Shown in pieces: positions 6,374-14,032 of a stretch of 64,000 nucleotides of DNA. Under the pieces are notes generated by a model. It ran no database searches and had not been told where the DNA came from. It saw only the letters and a list, made by a program, of their open reading frames with translations. Source of the DNA: Aequorivita vitellina (lineage in GTDB: Bacteria > Bacteroidota > Bacteroidia > Flavobacteriales > Flavobacteriaceae). The position numbers and the translations under genes are program-made. The stretch covers positions 1 through 64,000 of the forward strand of contig NZ_JAIRBA010000008.1 of assembly GCF_022008365.1 (NCBI RefSeq). Reading direction: 5' to 3'. How positions within the stretch are numbered: position 1 is the first letter of the stretch; the number at the start of each line of letters is the position of its first letter.

Positions 6374-9300
6374 TTATGCCTCTAAGGCTGCTTCGTCTTC
6401 TTCTTTTTTATCAATTAAGTCTTCAACTTTTTTGCGTTTTACAGTATCGTACATCACTGGAGTTGCGATAAACAATGATGAATAGGTACCTACTAAAATA
6501 CCCACAATAATTGCAAATAACAGTCCGCGAATAGATTCTGCTCCAAAGAAAAACATACTCAACAATACGATAAGTGTAGTAAAAGAGGTATTTAACGTTC
6601 TACTTAAGGTACTACTTAAAGCAAGGTCTATAATGCGATTCATTTTCCAGCTTGGGTGTTCGCCAAAGTATTCACGAATACGGTCAAATACAATTACCGT
6701 ATCGTTGAGCGAGTACCCAATAACCGTAAGGATTGCCGCAATAAAGGCTTGGTCTATTTCCATACTAAACGGCATAAACTTGTACGTAAGTGAGAATACC
6801 CCCAACACGATAAGCACGTCGTGGAATACCGCCGCAACTGCACCTAAACTAAACTGCCATCTTCTAAATCTAAGCAGAATATATAGGAACACAACTGCCA
6901 ATGAGCCAAATACCGCCCAGAACGAATCTTTTTTAATATCGTCTGCAATGGTAGGGCTCACTTTGTAATACTCCATTCTACCAATTGTTTTTCCTTCACC
7001 ATCCCCCACAAAATCTTCATAGGTCATGCCAGCTGGAAAATGTTTTTTAACGGTTTCAAAAAGCATGTGCTCTATTTCATCATCAACATCGGTTCCAGTT
7101 TCCTCCACTTTGTATTTAGTGGTAATTTTTAATTGATTATCGCCACCGTAGGTTTTTGCTTCCGCACTTCCGAAGGTTTCAATTAAATCGTTTTGAATGT
7201 CAATCGAATTCACATCTTTAGCAAAACGCACTGTGTATGTACGTCCTCCTACAAAATCTACACCTTGGTTAAGACCATTTACAAATAACGAACCAAGACT
7301 TATCACTATCATAATTGCTGAAAACACATAAGCTGTTTTACGCTTTTTCAAAAACTGAACGTGTACATTGGTAAATAGATTTTTAGTAAACGATGTAGAA
7401 CACGGTAATGATTTACCATTTCTGGTGTACTTATCTATAAACAATCTTGTTATAAAAATTGCAGTAAATAAAGATGTTGCAATACCAATTAATAAGGTAG
7501 TGGCAAACCCTTGAATAGGACCCGTACCGAAAACCAAAAGAATTAAACCGGTAAGACCCGTTGTAATGTTGGCATCGAGAATAGAAGATAACGCATTGTT
7601 GAAACCGTCCTTAACGGCATCTTTTTGCGCCTTCCCTTTAGCGAGTTCTTCTTTAATCCTTTCAAAGATAAGTACGTTCGCATCTACCGACATACCAACC
7701 GTTAGCACAATACCTGCAATACCAGGTAAAGTAAGTACGGCTCCCAAACCGGCTAAAATTCCAAAGATGAAAAGAATGTTGACCATTAAAGCAATATCTG
7801 CGTAGGCTCCAGCTCTTCCGTAGTAACCAATCATCCAGAAAAGAACGATTATAAGTGCTACTGCAAAAGACATTACACCACTGCTAATAGCTTCTTGACC
7901 CAATGTAGGCCCTACAACTTCACCTTGAATAATTTCAGCAGAAGCCGGAAGTTTACCCGCACGTAGTACGTTTGCTAAATCCTGTCCTTGGTTCACGGTA
8001 AAGTCTCCAGAAATCTGGCTACGTCCACCCGCAATAGGACCGGAAGTTACACCTGGCGCAGAATACACAGTGTTATCAAGAACAATAGCTATCTGGCTTT
8101 GATTTTCGTAGGCAGCTCCTGTAAGTTGCTCCCATACCTTGGCACCTTGACCGTTCATCTGCATAGATACTACCACACGGCTTAGGTTGTCGTATTCCTG
8201 TCTGGCATCTACCACAACGCTTCCGCCCAATGGAGGAACATTGCTACGGTTACCTTTAAGAGCGTAAAGTGCTGTTATTTCTTCGCCATTTAATTCTGGC
8301 GCTACTTCTGGCAAGCCCCAAACAAATTTTGCATAACGCATATCATTTGGCAACAACGATTTAATCTGTGGGTTGCGCAAATAACCGTTGATGGCTGCAG
8401 TATCTTTTAATTTAAAAGTAGCAATTACCGGACCTCCTTGGTTACCCAAAGAAACCATTTTAGAAAGTATTGGGTTTGTTTTGCTGTCATCTATTAAGGA
8501 ATCGCTAACGTCTTCACCTCCTAAAAGTTTACTAACATCGTCGTCTTCCGTTTTTGAAGAATCTGCTTCTTTTTCCGTAGTTTCTGTTTCGGCTGTTTCA
8601 GACGAAGTATTTGCCATAGCTATTTCACCTGCCTTATTATCGGCTGCTTGAAGGAATCCTGCTACTTCTTCAAACTTATATACATTCCAGAATTCTAGTT
8701 GGGCGGTACTTTGAAGCAATTTCTTAACCCTATCAACATCTTTTGCACCGGGAAGTTCAACAAGAATTCTCGCAGATTTACCCAAACGCTGAATGTTAGG
8801 TTGTGTTACTCCAAATTTATCGATACGTTTTCTTAAAACTTCAAAAGCCGAAGTAATAGACTCGTCAATTTTCTTTTCTATAATAGGCTTTACTTGGGCA
8901 TTGGTCATGCCAGCGCTTATTACGTCTTCCAAGTTCTTGTTAAAGAAAATATCTGGCGATGCAAGTTCATTATCGCCCGGAATTGCTTCAAATGCTTTAA
9001 AGAAAGACTCTAAATACGTTTCCTGACTTGTTTTTTGTAATTCTTTGGCATTCTCCAAAGCCTGGTTAAATGCCGGATCTTTGGTATTGTTTGCAAGACC
9101 TTTTAAGATGTCTTTTACTGATACTTCAAGAATTACGTTAATACCACCTTTAAGGTCAAGCCCTTTATTAAGCTCCTTTTCTTTAGCGGTTTTATAATCA
9201 ATTCCTAAAAATACTGGGTTGTTCGCCACAGAATCGAGGTAGCGATTTTCTGCCGCATCTCTTTCATGGGGTTCATTTTCAGAAAATTTGCTTTGCGCAA

Positions 9301-9412
9301 ACTCCTTAGCGTTGCCTTCTACCTTGTTCGCGATGAACGTAAAAGAAAGCTGGTAAATACTCACCAATCCAAAAAGGATGGCAAATACGGTAACTAATCC
9401 TTTATTTTGCAT
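6374..9412 (-). CDS. secDF: Protein translocase subunit SecDF (fused)
   Basis: About 1012 residues, a natural SecD-SecF fusion that uses the proton-motive force to complete Sec export. The SecD half starts with one membrane helix (GLVTVFAILFGLVSIYQL), then LNKGLDLKGGINVILEV, the large periplasmic P1 domain with a ~45-residue Glu/Asp/Ser/Thr-rich insert (around ETAETETTEKEADSSK), and the GMSVDANVLIFERIKEE signature. The SecF half has GLNQGVDFVGGRTYTV and YSLNDTVIVFDRIRE. The longest frame begins at 9451, but a promoter -7 box at 9449-9456 overlaps that codon, so the ATG at 9412 (MQNKGLV) is the start. The acidic insert is the only unusual part. Confidence 0.96.
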   Translation of the reverse strand: MQNKGLVTVFAILFGLVSIYQLSFTFIANKVEGNAKEFAQSKFSENEPHERDAAENRYLDSVANNPVFLGIDYKTAKEKELNKGLDLKGGINVILEVSVKDILKGLANNTKDPAFNQALENAKELQKTSQETYLESFFKAFEAIPGDNELASPDIFFNKNLEDVISAGMTNAQVKPIIEKKIDESITSAFEVLRKRIDKFGVTQPNIQRLGKSARILVELPGAKDVDRVKKLLQSTAQLEFWNVYKFEEVAGFLQAADNKAGEIAMANTSSETAETETTEKEADSSKTEDDDVSKLLGGEDVSDSLIDDSKTNPILSKMVSLGNQGGPVIATFKLKDTAAINGYLRNPQIKSLLPNDMRYAKFVWGLPEVAPELNGEEITALYALKGNRSNVPPLGGSVVVDARQEYDNLSRVVVSMQMNGQGAKVWEQLTGAAYENQSQIAIVLDNTVYSAPGVTSGPIAGGRSQISGDFTVNQGQDLANVLRAGKLPASAEIIQGEVVGPTLGQEAISSGVMSFAVALIIVLFWMIGYYGRAGAYADIALMVNILFIFGILAGLGAVLTLPGIAGIVLTVGMSVDANVLIFERIKEELAKGKAQKDAVKDGFNNALSSILDANITTGLTGLILLVFGTGPIQGFATTLLIGIATSLFTAIFITRLFIDKYTRNGKSLPCSTSFTKNLFTNVHVQFLKKRKTAYVFSAIMIVISLGSLFVNGLNQGVDFVGGRTYTVRFAKDVNSIDIQNDLIETFGSAEAKTYGGDNQLKITTKYKVEETGTDVDDEIEHMLFETVKKHFPAGMTYEDFVGDGEGKTIGRMEYYKVSPTIADDIKKDSFWAVFGSLAVVFLYILLRFRRWQFSLGAVAAVFHDVLIVLGVFSLTYKFMPFSMEIDQAFIAAILTVIGYSLNDTVIVFDRIREYFGEHPSWKMNRIIDLALSSTLSRTLNTSFTTLIVLLSMFFFGAESIRGLLFAIIVGILVGTYSSLFIATPVMYDTVKRKKVEDLIDKKEEDEAALEA

Positions 9413-9448
9413 GTTTAATTTTTTATGGTCAGATTTTTTTAAATCGCG

Positions 9449-9456
9449 CAAATATA
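9449..9456 (-). promoter_or_regulatory. -7 promoter element of secDF
   Basis: Read on the minus strand this is TATATTTG, a perfect TAnnTTTG box. It predicts a transcript start near 9444 and a leader of about 32 bases to the ATG at 9412, which rules out translation from the upstream ATG at 9451. Confidence 0.65.
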
Positions 9457-9586: not shown

Positions 9587-10201
9587 TTAAGTAAAAGGTC
9601 CAGCCCTAACCTCAGGAATTTTATAGGAAGCGTGATTTATTAAAAGTGAAATATTGCCATAGTTTTTATACGCAACTAACGCAATAGCCTGCTTTAAATC
9701 GAAATTGTTTTCTGAAGCATGCAGCGAAAAAACCGGCTTTAAATATTGATCTTTAGCAGCTTTAACAATAACTAAAATCCCTTGTAAATCTAAATTAGAC
9801 CCAAAATCTTTTTGGATTGTAACTACATCTAATTTATAAATGTGTGAATCTTGGGAAAAAGGAATTTTAGAAGAAGTATTCCTTTCATTAAAATCTGTAC
9901 CTGCAAGTTGAAGCTTATTTTGGCCACTAAACAGCCCTTTAATTGTAGCAACATCTTTCGAGCTGTAGTACGAAACCTTTAATTGTCCGTTTTGTATTTC
10001 GGAAACTAAAACATGCGCTATTCCAATGGACTTTAACTGAGAAGTAACGTTGGCAATGGCTTGTTCTGCTTCAGCAGCACTTACATTTTTAGTATTAAAC
10101 TGAACAACTATTTCCTGATTAGGAAGCGTAGATTGCTCCAAGCTTATTCCAAAAAAAGCAAGGGCAATAATTAATACGGGAATATACCATTTCCAGTTCA
10201 C
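9587..10201 (-). CDS. Unknown membrane-anchored or exported protein
   Basis: 204 residues that I do not recognise as a named family. The N-terminus (MNWKWYIPVLIIALAFFGISLEQS) is a single hydrophobic anchor or uncleaved signal. The rest is predicted extracytoplasmic, alternating alpha/beta in character (VSAAEAEQAIANVTSQLKSIG, then LKVSYYSSKDVATIKGLFSG), which could be a small SecD-P1-like or ferredoxin-like fold; that is only an impression. It lies upstream of secDF in the same direction (gap about 175 bp) and is transcribed separately from it. No cysteines or obvious catalytic residues were seen. Confidence 0.7.
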   Translation of the reverse strand: MNWKWYIPVLIIALAFFGISLEQSTLPNQEIVVQFNTKNVSAAEAEQAIANVTSQLKSIGIAHVLVSEIQNGQLKVSYYSSKDVATIKGLFSGQNKLQLAGTDFNERNTSSKIPFSQDSHIYKLDVVTIQKDFGSNLDLQGILVIVKAAKDQYLKPVFSLHASENNFDLKQAIALVAYKNYGNISLLINHASYKIPEVRAGPFT

Positions 10202-10370: not shown

Positions 10371-11225
10371 TTAAAACTCCAATTCAAAATAAAGACTGCT
10401 CTCAGGGTTGGCTTCTGTAACGTCTTCGCCTTTTAAAACTTCACCATTTGTATTCAATAGTTTTAGGTTTATCCGCCAGTAACCAGTCATCGTTAAAGAC
10501 AGTTTTCCGTCGTACGTTTTAGTTGCAGCATTATAGGTTAAATCTTCATTATTTGGCGAGCTGTGGTTGCCCATCCCCGGCATTCTTGGATCCACAGTTA
10601 TTTTATAATTTTCAACCATTGGGAAATCCATCATTGTTTCCATTTTATAAAGTACAGCCTGAAAATCATTAACTGCAACTTTGGGTTCTTTTGGGTTTAC
10701 GTATGCTAAAATGTAACGCACATCATCGCTCCCTGTAAAAACTTGTGTTTTTTTCAAACCATCAACTGGTTGGGCAACTGTAACTCGCAACGCTTCTTCT
10801 TTTGCTTCACCATTCATTGTGTAGTTTAGTGTTAGCTCCCAATATTCCGTGTTGTTACTCGCCATTTGGAAAACAATATGACCTTTATAAACCGTGGGTT
10901 CTTCCGTATTTTGTAACATAGAGTGTGGTGCAGCATGTTGCATAGTTTCCATATGCATCATTGGCATCCAAGTTGGTGTGGCATTCGACAAAAATTTGTC
11001 GCTTGCCAAATCTTTTACTCTGATAGAAATTTCGTTATAACCAACTTCAAGGTTTTGTTTTTCTGAATAAATCTGCACCGTGTGATCTGTTGCTTCAATT
11101 TCATAAATCATCGTTAACCCCTCAACCGGGTTTACTTCTACCGGTACATTTTCATCATCATCCGAACAACTTACGAATGAAACTGAAAGTATTAAAATTG
11201 CGAATATATATGTTAGTGTTTTCAT
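10371..11225 (-). CDS. Met/His-rich surface-exposed lipoprotein of the putative copper locus
   Basis: 284 residues from ATG 11225 (MKTLTYIFAI); the frame continues to 11306, but the upstream part overlaps the TonB gene and precedes the signal peptide. The lipobox is SFVSC followed by SDDDEN, an acidic +2 region typical of outer-membrane lipoproteins exported to the surface in this phylum. Two beta-rich FixH/YtkA-like modules follow; the first contains TWMPMMHMETMQHAAPHSM (residues ~92-110), a striking metal-ligand cluster, and the second MDFPMVENYKITVDPRMPGM. The gene starts 18 bp after the receptor stop, so the pair forms an operon. I infer a partner that delivers copper to the receptor; the family assignment is moderate. 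Confidence 0.75.
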   Translation of the reverse strand: MKTLTYIFAILILSVSFVSCSDDDENVPVEVNPVEGLTMIYEIEATDHTVQIYSEKQNLEVGYNEISIRVKDLASDKFLSNATPTWMPMMHMETMQHAAPHSMLQNTEEPTVYKGHIVFQMASNNTEYWELTLNYTMNGEAKEEALRVTVAQPVDGLKKTQVFTGSDDVRYILAYVNPKEPKVAVNDFQAVLYKMETMMDFPMVENYKITVDPRMPGMGNHSSPNNEDLTYNAATKTYDGKLSLTMTGYWRINLKLLNTNGEVLKGEDVTEANPESSLYFELEF

Positions 11226-11242
11226 CTTTATGTTTTTAATAA

Positions 11243-13282
11243 TTAGTTTATTGAATATGAAATAGTTAAATAAAAGTTTCTCCCCATACGCGGAATGTTG
11301 TTCCAATCGGTATATGAAGAATAATGAGTGTCGAGAATATTTTCAATTCCTGTTTTTACAAAAAGGTCGTTGTCATTTAAAAAGAAACGTTTTCCGAAGC
11401 TTGCCGAAAGCGTAGCATAAGCAGCAGTTTTTGTTTCACCGTAAGTAGGATTGTAATTGCTTTGCTCTCCCGCACCATCAACCGAAAGCGATGCAGAATA
11501 TTGATTTTTATAGAAATCGATCGCGCTTCTGTACGAAAGCGGACTAATTAACGGCAGGTTTTCACCATCGTTATCAACCCCTCGGTGATATGAAATTTGT
11601 CCGGTCCATTTAAACGCATTCGAAATACTATACCGCCCCGAAAGCGAAGTATTAAAAAGCTGCGCATACTCAAGATTGGTATAAATTTTAACCCCTTCAG
11701 CACCAATAGTCATCGTGCTGAGCGAATTATCTACCACTCCAATTATATAGTTGAAAACCCGAAAATAATTTGCCGAAGCAGTTATTTCAAAAATTGGTTT
11801 TTTAAAGGTTATTGAAATGTTTGCGTCGGCAGAACTTTCCGTTTTTAAACCGGGGTCGCCAATATAATCGTGATTATCAAAACTGTTGAACAAATAAAAG
11901 CCATATCCTTCCGAAACCGAAGGCGCGCGCTCACCATACGAAATACCACCATTTAAGTGAAAATCATGCCACATATTGTGGTATTGCGCCGAAAAACTTT
12001 TAAGAAAACGCGTGTTTGTCTTTTCCATTTCGGGGTAGAAAATTTTTAAACTGTTCAACCCAAAATCATCAGCAACGGTGTTTGAATGATACGCCAAACG
12101 CGTGGAAAGTTTTAGCGAAGCTTTCTTAAACTGAATATGATCTTCGCCATAAAAACCAACGTCTTTAGTACGCACATCCGGCCACGTAAGCATAAACATT
12201 AACGGCTCGTTGCTGTTGGTTGGATACATCGTCATTTCGGCATAACTCTTATTGTAAAACCCATCCAACTTAAAAAAGAAATGATTTTTCTCTTTGTTGA
12301 AATTAGCCTGTGTATAAAAACCCGCTGTCTCGCTCCACCCCGGCATGTCCATATGTATTGGCACGTCGGGACGTTTGGTATCATCCATCGTATGTTTAAT
12401 GGTATTGTAATACAATTTAGATTCCCAATTGCTGAAATTTCCAAACAAAGTATCCTGATTAAAACTCACCGAACCAATCACCGCTCGCGCCAAAGAAACG
12501 TCCATTGTTAATGCGGGATAACCAACATCCGTGGCTTCATCATATATTAAGGTAGCGGAAACAGATTTATCTTCAGTCAATTTAAACCCAGAGTTAACAG
12601 AGAAGTTGTATTTTTCAAATTGTGAAAACTTTACTTCTTCGTCGCCTCCAGCGCTATAATTATCGGCCTTTCTATAAATTGCATCGGTGTTTAAATAAAA
12701 TTTTTCATCGGAATAATTTAGTTCACCACCAAAAACACGCATTGCGTTATTGCTTTCAAAAGCACTTTCCAAAGAACCCGTCCAGCCGGTTGGCTTAAAA
12801 TTACTTTTGTCCAATTTTAAATTAATGCCGCCGCCAATCGAATTGCCAAAAGCCGCACCCTGCTGACCCGAACCTATCTCCGCTTCCGAAAGATTAGACA
12901 CATCAACATACGAAGTAATCGGGTCCATTTTATCGGTACATGCGCCAAATATTTGCATACCGTCAATGGTTACTGCCAACCTTTCGGAAGCCATATCGTT
13001 CATCGTCGGTTCCCACGCATAGGCACCGCGTTTTACCATTTTTATACTACGCGACGACTCCAAAAATTCATCTAAAGTAGATAGGGGTTTGCGTTGTTTT
13101 TGATGATCTAATTGTTTGGCTGTTGAAATAACAATCACTTCGTTAAGATTGATTAATTTCAAGCTGTCTGCGGGTATTTCTTGAGCGTACAACGGCGACA
13201 CTAAAGTACCGCATACCATTGCCACCAAAAGACTACCCATAAGCATTCCCTTAAAAGGAAACACACTTATAAATGCTTTCAT
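11243..13282 (-). CDS. TonB-dependent receptor, OprC/NosA-like (putative copper uptake)
   Basis: 679 residues: signal peptide to LYAQ (~34), plug domain (~45-160) and beta-barrel ending in aromatic YLTISYSIN. In the plug, RLAVTIDGMQIFGACTDKMDP gives C115-x3-M119, and barrel residues H297-T-M299 give HxM. The copper receptor OprC of Pseudomonas binds copper through a CxxxM-HxM site (C143/M147/H323/M325, from memory of the published structure); the separation here (182 versus 180 residues) matches closely. A second cluster, IHMDMPGW, follows at 309-316. There is no carboxypeptidase-like N-terminal extension as in SusC proteins. It is followed by the Met/His-rich lipoprotein and preceded by a Cys-rich small protein. 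Heme or siderophore transport is the less likely alternative. Confidence 0.88.
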   Translation of the reverse strand: MKAFISVFPFKGMLMGSLLVAMVCGTLVSPLYAQEIPADSLKLINLNEVIVISTAKQLDHQKQRKPLSTLDEFLESSRSIKMVKRGAYAWEPTMNDMASERLAVTIDGMQIFGACTDKMDPITSYVDVSNLSEAEIGSGQQGAAFGNSIGGGINLKLDKSNFKPTGWTGSLESAFESNNAMRVFGGELNYSDEKFYLNTDAIYRKADNYSAGGDEEVKFSQFEKYNFSVNSGFKLTEDKSVSATLIYDEATDVGYPALTMDVSLARAVIGSVSFNQDTLFGNFSNWESKLYYNTIKHTMDDTKRPDVPIHMDMPGWSETAGFYTQANFNKEKNHFFFKLDGFYNKSYAEMTMYPTNSNEPLMFMLTWPDVRTKDVGFYGEDHIQFKKASLKLSTRLAYHSNTVADDFGLNSLKIFYPEMEKTNTRFLKSFSAQYHNMWHDFHLNGGISYGERAPSVSEGYGFYLFNSFDNHDYIGDPGLKTESSADANISITFKKPIFEITASANYFRVFNYIIGVVDNSLSTMTIGAEGVKIYTNLEYAQLFNTSLSGRYSISNAFKWTGQISYHRGVDNDGENLPLISPLSYRSAIDFYKNQYSASLSVDGAGEQSNYNPTYGETKTAAYATLSASFGKRFFLNDNDLFVKTGIENILDTHYSSYTDWNNIPRMGRNFYLTISYSIN

Positions 13283-13365
13283 TTTTTAATAGTTTTGATA
13301 ATTTAAAAGGAAGTGGGTTTTTGAAATATTCCGAAGAAATTTCAAAAAAAATCCATTATTTGAAA

Positions 13366-13743
13366 TTATCCCAACTGCGGCGGATGAAGAATTTTTGATA
13401 TAAAAAGAAAAGAGTTCAAATTTGGCTTATAGCCGGTTTTTTCAATTGAAGCTATTTCGCTTTCAGACGTAAAAATATATTCTGAAATTTCTTCTGAAAT
13501 TATAAACTGCGGAATTTCGGTATGTGAAATTTTACTGCTAAACGGGTTTTCATCTTCGGCGCCGGCTTCCTTTGCCAATTCCTTAGATAAATGACACTTT
13601 CCGTTACACTGCATTTCGGGCTTGTCTTTGTTTTCGCAAAGCACATTTACAATGTAATCGTAATTCACAATATAATCTACCACTGGCCACATAGGTTTCG
13701 TGAGGATTACTACGGATGCAATTACGAGAATTAGGTTTTTCAC
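13366..13743 (-). CDS. Small Cys-containing protein upstream of the TonB receptor
   Basis: 125 residues if started at GTG 13743 (VKNLILVIASVVILTKPMWPVV), a signal or anchor sequence. The longer frame from ATG 13803 would place an extra hydrophobic stretch in front and would cover a perfect inverted repeat at 13779-13790, so I prefer the GTG. The mature part has LCENKDKPEMQCNGKCHLSKEL, with a CxxxC pair next to His, and ends HPPQLG. Small proteins with this pattern commonly sit beside TonB receptors in Flavobacteriaceae; their function is unknown. The gap to the receptor gene is 83 bp and contains a weak stem-loop (13318-13348). Role in copper handling is inferred from context. Confidence 0.7.
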   Translation of the reverse strand: MKNLILVIASVVILTKPMWPVVDYIVNYDYIVNVLCENKDKPEMQCNGKCHLSKELAKEAGAEDENPFSSKISHTEIPQFIISEEISEYIFTSESEIASIEKTGYKPNLNSFLFISKILHPPQLG

Positions 13744-13778
13744 ATTACAAAAATAAGTAGAAAAATAGCTTATAAAAA

Positions 13779-13790
13779 TGATAATTATCA
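13779..13790. promoter_or_regulatory. Perfect 12-bp palindrome, possible metal-regulator operator
   Basis: TGATAATTATCA is a perfect inverted repeat 36 bases upstream of the GTG start of the first gene in the putative copper locus. Its sequence resembles half of a Fur-type box (GATAAT...ATTATC). The regulator is unknown. Confidence 0.45.
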
Positions 13791-14032
13791 CATATTTTAA
13801 CATCGCTCCAAAAATTTATACGCGCTACAAAAAAGAAAACACAATAAAAATAAAGGTTTAAATATTTGTCAACTTTTAGTTGTTGATAAATTTTTACATT
13901 GTTGATTTTTAGGATATTAACAATCACTTCTTGACAACTTTAAAATTTCGATAGAAATTGAGATTACTAATTCGTTATATTTACCTACTTTAAAAATTGA
14001 ATTTAAAACCATCCAAAAACCCATTTCGAATT

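Follow-up and report, generated by a model that had tools for sequence, protein, structure and literature searches.

What does this locus of a marine flavobacterium, with its small first gene, OprC-like receptor and lipoprotein, do, and what does it serve? N2O reductase requires copper. We know of no other enzyme by which the greenhouse gas N2O is removed, and of little work on how Bacteroidota acquire and sense copper. Flavobacteria often carry this enzyme (nosZ in 90 of 199 family genomes, 87 above the model's cut-off). We analyzed the locus within a 64-kb stretch of DNA (the window; features in Table 1). We consider it likely that the locus is a low-oxygen, copper-controlled copper-import operon, and the three-gene unit most likely provides surface copper capture and import for N2O-reducing and low-oxygen respiratory enzymes. 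Its small first gene is best read not as a component of transport but as a candidate copper sensor that acts as a nascent peptide. New here are that four receptor ligands and the upstream small gene are retained in every one of the 77 OprC-like matches from 199 family genomes, that the small genes form a leader family, that a YtkA lipoprotein is tied to one receptor clade, and that an FNR-type box precedes the leader. Besides a candidate importer and its surface partner, the locus supplies a promoter box of the oxygen type and a candidate family of copper-sensing leaders.

Table 1. Features of the locus, listed in the direction of transcription
Feature	Position	Strand	Remarks
Leader gene, OprC-like receptor gene and YtkA lipoprotein gene	within 10371-13803	-	
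CRP/FNR-type operator TGATAATTATCA	13779-13790	-	centre 29 nt before -7 box, about -41.5 (activator position)
Sigma-A -7 box TATTTTTG (TAnnTTTG)	13748-13755	-	ends 4 nt before GTG start; predicted leaderless mRNA
Leader gene, 125 aa	13366-13743	-	hydrophobic N terminus; C36/C46/C50 (C-x9-CNGKC); putative copper-responsive nascent-peptide regulator
Leader-receptor intergenic region, 83 nt	13283-13365	-	
OprC-like TonB-dependent copper receptor, 679 aa	11243-13282	-	homology, conserved ligands, structure match
Receptor ligand codons	C115 12938-12940; M119 12926-12928; H297 12392-12394; M299 12386-12388	-	
YtkA-domain lipoprotein, 284 aa	10371-11225	-	two β-sandwich domains
Lipoprotein acidic run CSDDDE		-	directly after lipobox Cys
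Lipoprotein Met/His cluster codons	10920-10970	-	

The receptor resembles OprC

The initial annotation had equated C115-x3-M119 and H297-x-M299 of the receptor with the CxxxM and HxM groups of Pseudomonas OprC, and this assignment is borne out. A phmmer alignment with OprC (PDB ID 6fok, E = 3.6e-13) places C115/M119 on C143/M147 and H297/M299 on H323/M325 (OprC numbering after PMC8610252), with a spacing of 182 residues compared with 180 in OprC. The four residues are kept in all 77 OprC-like receptor matches from the 199 family genomes (23–100% identity) and in 44 of 45 members of a second, closely related receptor set (the exception, L235, has Val at the M299 position), and the ligand alignment is therefore not due to chance. 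The structural comparison with OprC that had been proposed puts OprC on top of both rankings: the best 28 PDB chains found by Foldseek with a receptor model are all OprC (TM 0.80/0.84 for the first), as are the 13 best rows returned by VIA (best Z 37.9, 595 residues, 2.5 Å). The whole model superposes, and the ligands are aligned by sequence.

The receptor shares with OprC/NosA of Pseudomonas the TonB receptor fold, the matching ligand positions, a Met-rich loop after HxM, and a tie to N2O reductase and low oxygen (PMC8610252). It differs in its ∼20% sequence identity, in the YtkA lipoprotein partner found in one receptor clade, in a different leader family, and in scoring 115.2 bits against the TIGR01778 equivalog cut-off of 472.45. 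The OprC/NosA-type label thus holds for ligands and overall fold but not for strict TIGR01778 membership. The initial annotation knew of no characterized example of this exact three-part arrangement. An OprC-like TBDT with CxxxM-HxM has already been reported in a flavobacterium (G2EC70 from Bizionia argentinensis, PMC11213822), where it is presented as a single gene, the accessible part of that paper mentioning no YtkA protein, leader or FNR-type box. The pairing of a YtkA lipoprotein with a copper TonB receptor is not described in the open-access literature searched, as far as its text was accessible.

A YtkA lipoprotein accompanies one receptor clade

The lipoprotein gene accompanies one receptor clade (clade I, 40/40). 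Its product matches YtkA (PF13115) in two stretches (34.8 bits, above the gathering threshold of 25.9); we place its start at ATG 11225, which yields a lipobox Cys20, and not at TTG 11306 of the ORF list. The dense Met/His cluster noted initially (W86-x-P-x-M90-x-M92...H97) is conserved: of 80 homologues, 75 have W.P.M.M..H and 76 have DPRMP.M.NH. With a lipoprotein model, Foldseek and VIA returned generic Ig-like and β-sandwich matches only, and a PDB sequence search gave no match below E = 0.16; 9ll2, a copper resistance protein, had E = 0.63. Among 80 named loci, which are the best matches of one search and closely related to one another, the gene order is small-receptor-lipoprotein in 59 and small-lipoprotein-receptor in 18, with no small gene found in 3.

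CtaK/YtkA and the YtkA domain of YcnJ from Bacillus subtilis share the domain, the extracytoplasmic lipoprotein character and the copper context (PMC13344008), but the window protein has two domains, an acidic surface-export-like signal and an outer-membrane receptor as gene partner. YtkA/CtaK of B. subtilis has been implicated in the assembly of CuA (PMC13344008), and 16/40 clade-I loci lie ≤10 kb from nosZ (uncorrected for kinship), both in keeping with a periplasm-facing lipoprotein that, like CtaK, passes copper to NosZ or oxidase assembly with no capture outside. We regard such a role as doubtful: two to five of the six residues following the lipobox Cys are acidic in all 77 readable homologues (of 80), much like the SDDDD/SDDFE signals sufficient for surface export (PMC5080379), and receptors with a lipoprotein partner contain extra invariant Met residues (M311, M313, M350, M352, M362, and M364) that are mostly missing in partnerless receptors (alignment at ∼25% identity). 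The lipoprotein, whose signal sequence resembles surface-export signals, is probably surface-exposed. Of the three-part capture-and-import module proposed initially, conservation, the structure match and the linkage of the genes support the predicted pair of receptor and Met/His-rich, probably surface-exposed lipoprotein; the first gene reads as a regulatory leader instead.

The first gene belongs to a probable leader family found across Bacteroidota

In all 77 OprC-like loci of the 199 family genomes, a small gene of the same orientation precedes the receptor or the lipoprotein gene (in one case with an extra ORF in between). Its family is present in 111 of 296 Bacteroidota genomes and is matched by no Pfam or NCBIfam model. 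Members have a hydrophobic start, a C...CxGxC cluster, a variable middle, and a Pro-Pro near the C terminus at fixed spacing (Cys-to-PP 66.9 ± 2.2), the ends being mostly (F)HPP-like. Pro-Pro is found within the last 15 residues of 149/150 members, compared with 12/784 other genes; this count includes loci L031–L060 (137/138 without them), and the incomplete loci L027 and L028 were replaced by L130 and L131. Among the partial profile matches listed, which end at position 108 or less, before the Pro-Pro, 39 of 43 carry it in the last 15 residues; two others have it ∼20 residues from the end, one is without it, and one is not a readable frame. Some members exceed 150 residues if the first possible start is taken. 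For the window leader, relatives point to GTG 13743 rather than ATG 13803 of the ORF list, and its Pro121-Pro122 sits three residues before the end. The initial description as a small CxxxC-His protein is right for the cysteines, which are conserved, but not for the His, which is Tyr, Gln, Met or Glu in relatives.

The family heads operons for TonB receptors, MbnP/MauG, SCO, PCuAC, and PepSY_TM. These names come from clusters of the first three same-strand genes (gaps ≤700 nt), with representatives assigned by Pfam; small clusters and 23 singletons were left unnamed, and tandem leaders count one receptor twice. The middle half of the gaps between leader and next gene spans 66–168 nt. A same-strand neighbor is often present upstream of the leader (76/119 cases, middle half of gaps 82–196 nt), and the status as first gene therefore rests on the -7 box, TAnnTTTG, which has been placed at -12 to -5 (PMC9723704) and is found upstream of the leader in 85/122 cases and within the gap to the next gene in only 4/121.

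Three features lead us to read the first gene as a regulatory leader: it stands at the head of different copper operons, whether or not these include the lipoprotein; it stays first when the order of receptor and lipoprotein flips; and its layout combines a Cys cluster with a Pro-Pro at fixed spacing. An export-type hydrophobic N terminus (128/136 members) and conserved clustered cysteines, as potential copper carriers, would also suit a functional protein of the periplasm or membrane, either a copper chaperone or a sensor, whose Pro-Pro serves structure or sorting and is not a pause site. We find this improbable, given a hypervariable middle (conservation 0.23) flanked at fixed spacing by a conserved core (0.69) and end (0.66), a promoter-proximal position in operons of differing content, and the action in cis of CruR and CutF, analogues with this layout (PMC9426467, PMC9973294).

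Comparison with CruR and CutF

CruR (DUF2946) is the leader of the Bordetella bp2923-bfrG-bp2921 operon (PMC9426467, PMC12992588). Like CruR, the family described here is encoded by a small gene at the start of copper operons that include TonB receptors, PepSY_TM, SCO, PCuAC, and MbnPH (PMC9426467, PMC12992588), and its operon list covers much of the list known for CruR. Both are promoter-proximal and combine an N-terminal export signal, a Cys cluster (a Cys pair in CruR) and a C-terminal Pro-Pro at conserved spacing. CxGxC, a spacing of ∼67 and an (F)HPP-like end contrast with CXXC, 45 and RAPP in CruR, and the distance to the next gene is 162 nt in Bordetella, compared with the range given above. 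The window leader has no match to PF11162 (DUF2946), nor is there one in its own genome, and comparison of the family profile with five Bacteroidota DUF2946-like proteins gave a probability of 0.35%. Homology of the leader to DUF2946 is not supported. A 2025 survey reported no RAPP/RGPP leaders for copper-factor genes in Bacteroidota, and found leaders of TonB receptor genes in Gram-negatives generally.

CutF-like proteins are likewise small, with CxxxC, a Pro-Pro in the last 15 residues and a same-strand copper gene downstream (PMC9973294). Judged by the CutF-like rules, the window leader has fewer than 150 residues, PP in the last 15, an export signal, a metal-binding motif and a same-strand gene ≤1000 nt downstream. 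The corresponding survey comprises 29 clusters, with many Bacteroidota and TonB neighbors (PMC9973294), and these may include members of our family; in the accessible open-access literature searched, the family as such is not described, and none of the papers listed carries the name HYC_CC_PP. The target of CutF is an oxidase gene, which it controls through an RNA stem-loop (PMC9973294), whereas the leader-family gaps fold no more strongly than other codirectional gaps of the same loci (mean z -2.59, n = 83, compared with -2.38, n = 135; p = 0.23). RNA structure in these gaps was accordingly dropped as evidence.

An FNR-type box and linkage to nosZ

The FNR-type box before the leader, like the Pro-Pro near its C terminus, was absent from the initial annotation. 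It is the sole such box in the window. The pattern TGAY-N4-RTCA is found in 71/76 named loci (best matches, closely related; shuffled mean 1.2), in 12/26 clade-I loci of the first set, and before 9/58 other leaders. A Fur-like reading of the palindrome was dropped, since in relatives TGAY-N4-RTCA keeps a constant distance to the -7 box. In its own genome the pattern has 12 matches, compared with 1 in a reversed control, and precedes the nos stretch, a COX1-type oxidase gene and a radical SAM gene reading like HemN. The accessible open-access literature searched contains no description of an FNR-type box at such loci. nosZ is present in 32/40 clade-I genomes and missing in 8/40 (uncorrected for kinship), and none of the 37 clade-II loci lies within 15 kb of it.

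Proposed mode of action

At low oxygen, an FNR-type activator would switch on the promoter directly before the leader gene, as the strong motif suggests, alongside nos and the COX1-type oxidase gene, whose products require copper. Judging from how the family is built and from the analogues CruR and CutF, the leader may then, while nascent, sense copper through its C...CxGxC cluster, with the ribosome pausing at the (F)HPP-like end and copper altering the pause to set expression of the rest of the operon. The likeliest sign is that of CruR, scarce copper giving pause and expression and plentiful copper release and shut-off. We lean toward the view that the first gene is the founding member of a family of ribosome-arrest leaders that sense copper throughout Bacteroidota; this family would have evolved the same layout with no detectable relation to CruR and would govern many copper-import and copper-enzyme assembly operons of the phylum. 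Here it would be stacked on the FNR-type promoter, so that oxygen and copper jointly gate the import that serves N2O reductase and a low-oxygen oxidase. If true, the family would fill the Bacteroidota gap left by the RAPP/RGPP survey, and copper sensing by nascent peptides, having arisen convergently in a second phylum, would prove to be a general mode of control.

From homology and structure match, the receptor would bind copper with C115, M119, H297, and M299 and move it to the periplasm on TonB energy. That its substrate is not ionic copper but a copper chelate, another metal or haem is quite unlikely: PhuR, a haem receptor, and ZnuD, a zinc receptor, rank next after OprC in Foldseek, TIGR01785 haem receptors score 69.7 bits and CrtA takes up chelated copper (PMC12914433), but the four OprC ligands persist in 77/77 matches down to 23% identity, and the leader family is linked to copper genes. 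For copper import by the receptor, the two-domain YtkA lipoprotein would collect the metal through its Met/His sites on the cell-surface side of the outer membrane. Such a pair of surface lipoprotein and TonB receptor recalls BtuB-BtuG and SusCD of Bacteroidota, with a metal instead of a vitamin or glycan as cargo and with different lipoprotein domains; the VIA matches to the receptor model include BtuB-BtuG chains.

The receptor and its lipoprotein partner

The initial annotation had claimed that the window receptor carries the CxxxM and HxM groups of OprC. We find that C115/M119 and H297/M299 indeed fall on OprC ligands in the phmmer alignment, and that OprC (six distinct sequences, best E 3.6e-13) is the sole match among PDB sequences at E <= 0.001. 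Pfam assigns a TonB plug; the NCBIfam TonB-copper model TIGR01778 scores 115.2 bits, far below its cut-off of 472.45, and the haem-receptor model TIGR01785 scores 69.7 bits. An AlphaFold2 model built from a 45-sequence alignment (pLDDT 81.5) has OprC chains as its best 28 Foldseek matches (TM of the first 0.80 by query, 0.84 by target) and as its best 13 rows in VIA (Z 36.2-37.9). Below these in VIA come ZnuD, YncD and BtuB, none above Z 35.5.

Coordinates of the features described
Feature	Position	Strand	Details
Leader gene	13366-13743	-	125 aa, start GTG 13743
Receptor gene	11243-13282	-	679 aa
Lipoprotein gene	10371-11225	-	284 aa, start ATG 11225
-7 box (TAnnTTTG)	13748-13755	-	
FNR-type box (TGAY-N4-RTCA)	13779-13790	-	
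Gene preceding secDF	9587-10201	-	204 aa
secDF	6374-9451	-	
Second leader-like gene	6839-7258 of locus L258	-	contig C116 of the same genome

The nearest named relatives of the receptor come from Aequorivita species (89% identity). At E <= 1e-30 we located 77 receptors in 74 of 199 family genomes, forming clade I (n = 40, 41-100% identical to the window receptor) and clade II (n = 37, 23-28%). All 77 keep the C, M, H and M ligands, as do 44 of 45 receptors in a second set, mostly from named genomes. Clade I receptors share nine further invariant methionines (M97, M109, M311, M313, M350, M352, M362, M364 and M524), none of which reaches 70% in clade II, in an alignment that is approximate at ~25% identity. 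M311 and M313 align with the OprC loop holding methionine-track residues (PMC8610252). Three receptor frames (loci L016, genome G130; L126, genome G014; and L238) contain one in-frame stop, by decay or sequencing error.

The lipoprotein gene adjoins the receptor gene in 40/40 clade I and 0/37 clade II loci. PF13115 (YtkA) is above cut-off in two stretches of the protein, which is modeled as two β-sandwich domains (pLDDT 88.8). The motifs W.P.M.M..H and DPRMP.M.NH are present in 75 and 76 of 80 homologues, respectively, and, in all 77 readable ones, 2-5 of the six residues following the lipobox Cys are acidic. Because this acidic run resembles the Bacteroidota surface-export signals SDDDD and SDDFE (PMC5080379), the lipoprotein is predicted to reside on the cell surface, where it would capture copper.

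A putative leader family with a conserved Cys core and C-terminal Pro-Pro

In the window the leader comes first, followed by the receptor and lipoprotein genes. In each of our first 30 loci the lipoprotein and receptor genes are adjacent, 11 in one order and 19 in the other; the small gene was found in 28 and leads in all of them. In longer stretches, a leader preceded 77/77 receptors, once with an extra 171-aa ORF between. The 80 named loci (best matches from named genomes) are ordered small-receptor-lipoprotein (59) or small-lipoprotein-receptor (18); the other 3 yielded no small gene, and 2 of these start too close to a contig end. Profile searches returned leaders in 111/296 Bacteroidota and 116/199 family genomes. 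Pfam and NCBIfam searches with 21 members gave no fitting model, with scattered weak matches alone.

C...CxGxC is present in 149/150 members (CRAKC in L139), and Pro-Pro lies within the last 15 residues in 149/150 (18 from the end in L146), at 66.9 ± 2.2 residues from the last Cys (range 61-73). Other genes of the same loci end in this way in 12/784 cases (10/236 for 80-200 aa). Since the search profile itself contained Pro-Pro, we examined all 43 listed matches from the 296-genome search that end before it: Pro-Pro is within the last 15 residues in 39, ~20 residues from the end in 2 (L286, L305) and absent in 1 (L288), and one frame is unreadable. The three odd members are natural tests of the need for the end motif. 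Conservation is 0.32 in the N-terminus, 0.69 in the Cys core, 0.23 in the middle and 0.66 in the C-terminus; 128/136 members have a strongly hydrophobic N-terminal stretch. The commonest residue before Pro-Pro is His (62/137), and the commonest one position earlier is Phe (71/137).

The gene after the leader is on the same strand in 132/136 cases and the upstream neighbor in 76/119. We clustered downstream genes from 60 Bacteroidota neighborhoods (63 leaders), naming clusters by Pfam on one or two representatives each, with smaller clusters and 23 singletons outside this naming. TonB receptors (38), MbnP (15), CCP_MauG (14), an unnamed 320-aa protein (13), SCO1 (8), PepSY_TM (5 and 2), YtkA (5) and PCuAC (5) were obtained. 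These overlap strongly with the genes reported for CruR operons, namely TBDTs including the OprC type, PepSY_TM, ScoC, PCuAC, MbnPH, YcnI, CopC and AhpC_TSA (PMC9426467).

In L082 and L112, and also in L121 and L123, a tandem pair of leader-family genes precedes a single TonB receptor gene or lipoprotein-receptor operon. The second leader-like gene of the window's genome is His-rich, lacks CxGxC, ends in IFQPPKFA and matches the leader profile weakly (E 0.2). Directly after it come two genes labeled by eye: a large CzcA-like one, apparently fused to an OEP-like part, and a CzcB-like one. This arrangement points to sister families of leaders that serve metal efflux.

Promoter, FNR-type box and copper demand

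The Bacteroidota -7 box TAnnTTTG occurs within 160 nt upstream of 85/122 leaders (shuffled mean 13.9, maximum 24) and in 4/121 gaps between leader and next gene (shuffled mean 11.7), which places the promoter in front of the leader. In 52/77 named loci 4 or 5 nt separate the -7 box from a start codon of the leader, as they do in the window (GTG 13743). As this box occupies -12 to -5 (PMC9723704), the spacing predicts a conserved leaderless, or nearly leaderless, leader mRNA.

TGAY-N4-RTCA lies upstream in 71/76 named loci (shuffled mean 1.2; control windows 0/77 and 2/75); these loci are closely related, so that neither this nor the -7 box count there is independent. Elsewhere it was found in 25/36 clade II loci, 12/26 clade I loci of the first set and 9/58 other leaders. 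In loci with both boxes, the center of TGAY-N4-RTCA mostly precedes the -7 box by 29-30 nt. This puts it near -41.5, where CRP/FNR-type activators usually bind. Searching the window's genome for the combined pattern gave 12 matches, against 1 in a reversed control. Besides this leader, the matches are followed by a cytochrome c gene opening the nosZ stretch, a COX1 gene (278 nt downstream), a radical SAM protein resembling HemN, three Usp proteins (one of them 336 nt downstream), proline dehydrogenase, OEP, a short-chain dehydrogenase and a pyridine-nucleotide oxidoreductase; one match has no ORF. We infer FNR-type control of the leader operon. The genome encodes three CRP/FNR-type HTH proteins above cut-off.

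The same genome has four COX1-family genes and nosZ, the latter on a contig other than the window's. nosZ is present in 32/40 clade I genomes versus 58/159 others (Fisher p 8e-7, kinship ignored) and in 27/37 clade II genomes. It lies 3-10 kb from the receptor locus in 16/40 clade I cases and within 15 kb in 0/37 clade II cases.

A possible leader mechanism

At the level of sequence, our comparisons establish gene content, conservation, fixed spacing, promoter place and linkage. Copper would be the ligand, and ribosomes may pause on the leader. Among systems worked out so far, CruR comes closest: its RAPP arrest is proposed to be relieved by copper at CXXC, and Rho then ends transcription (PMC9426467). 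The arrest itself has been demonstrated in vitro (PMC12992588). The opposite sign is reported for CutF (PMC9973294). We favor a copper response of the CruR sign, because import should drop when copper is plentiful. In folding analysis, the gap between leader and next gene showed no more RNA structure than background.

OprC, an OprC-like receptor in a flavobacterium, CruR and CutF-like proteins (Bacteroidota included, some before TonB genes) are already in print. Among the matches listed from the open-access literature, we saw neither the leader family as such, nor a YtkA surface partner of a copper TonB receptor, nor an FNR-type box before the leader. RAPP/RGPP leaders are described as general in Gram-negatives for TonB-receptor genes and, for copper-factor genes, as missing from certain groups, Bacteroidota among them (PMC12992588). 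We located marginal DUF2946 proteins in 5/148 Bacteroidota genomes (L161-L165, 2 above cut-off), at places other than leader-family loci; four have SRAPP near the end and one RGPP, and thus a few RAPP/RGPP-type leaders exist in Bacteroidota.

Surroundings of the locus

The genome is a 3.63-Mb draft in 197 contigs. As far as we looked, the flanks of the three-gene locus contain no copper genes: one flank holds a gene judged by eye to resemble a nucleotide reductase, and the opposite flank holds secDF and a small gene with no match in Pfam. The product of this small gene has a hydrophobic N-terminus and KIPEVRAGPFT as its last residues. All 13 homologues found in the named loci share an unchanged KIPEVRAGP, which lies 2 residues before the end in 12 of them and 6 in the other. 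Because RAGP is the arrest motif of SecM, this protein looks like a candidate Sec-monitoring arrest peptide. The C-terminal motifs named for Bacteroidota leaders in PMC10987492, NSP-stop and NAP-stop, are other than RAGP.
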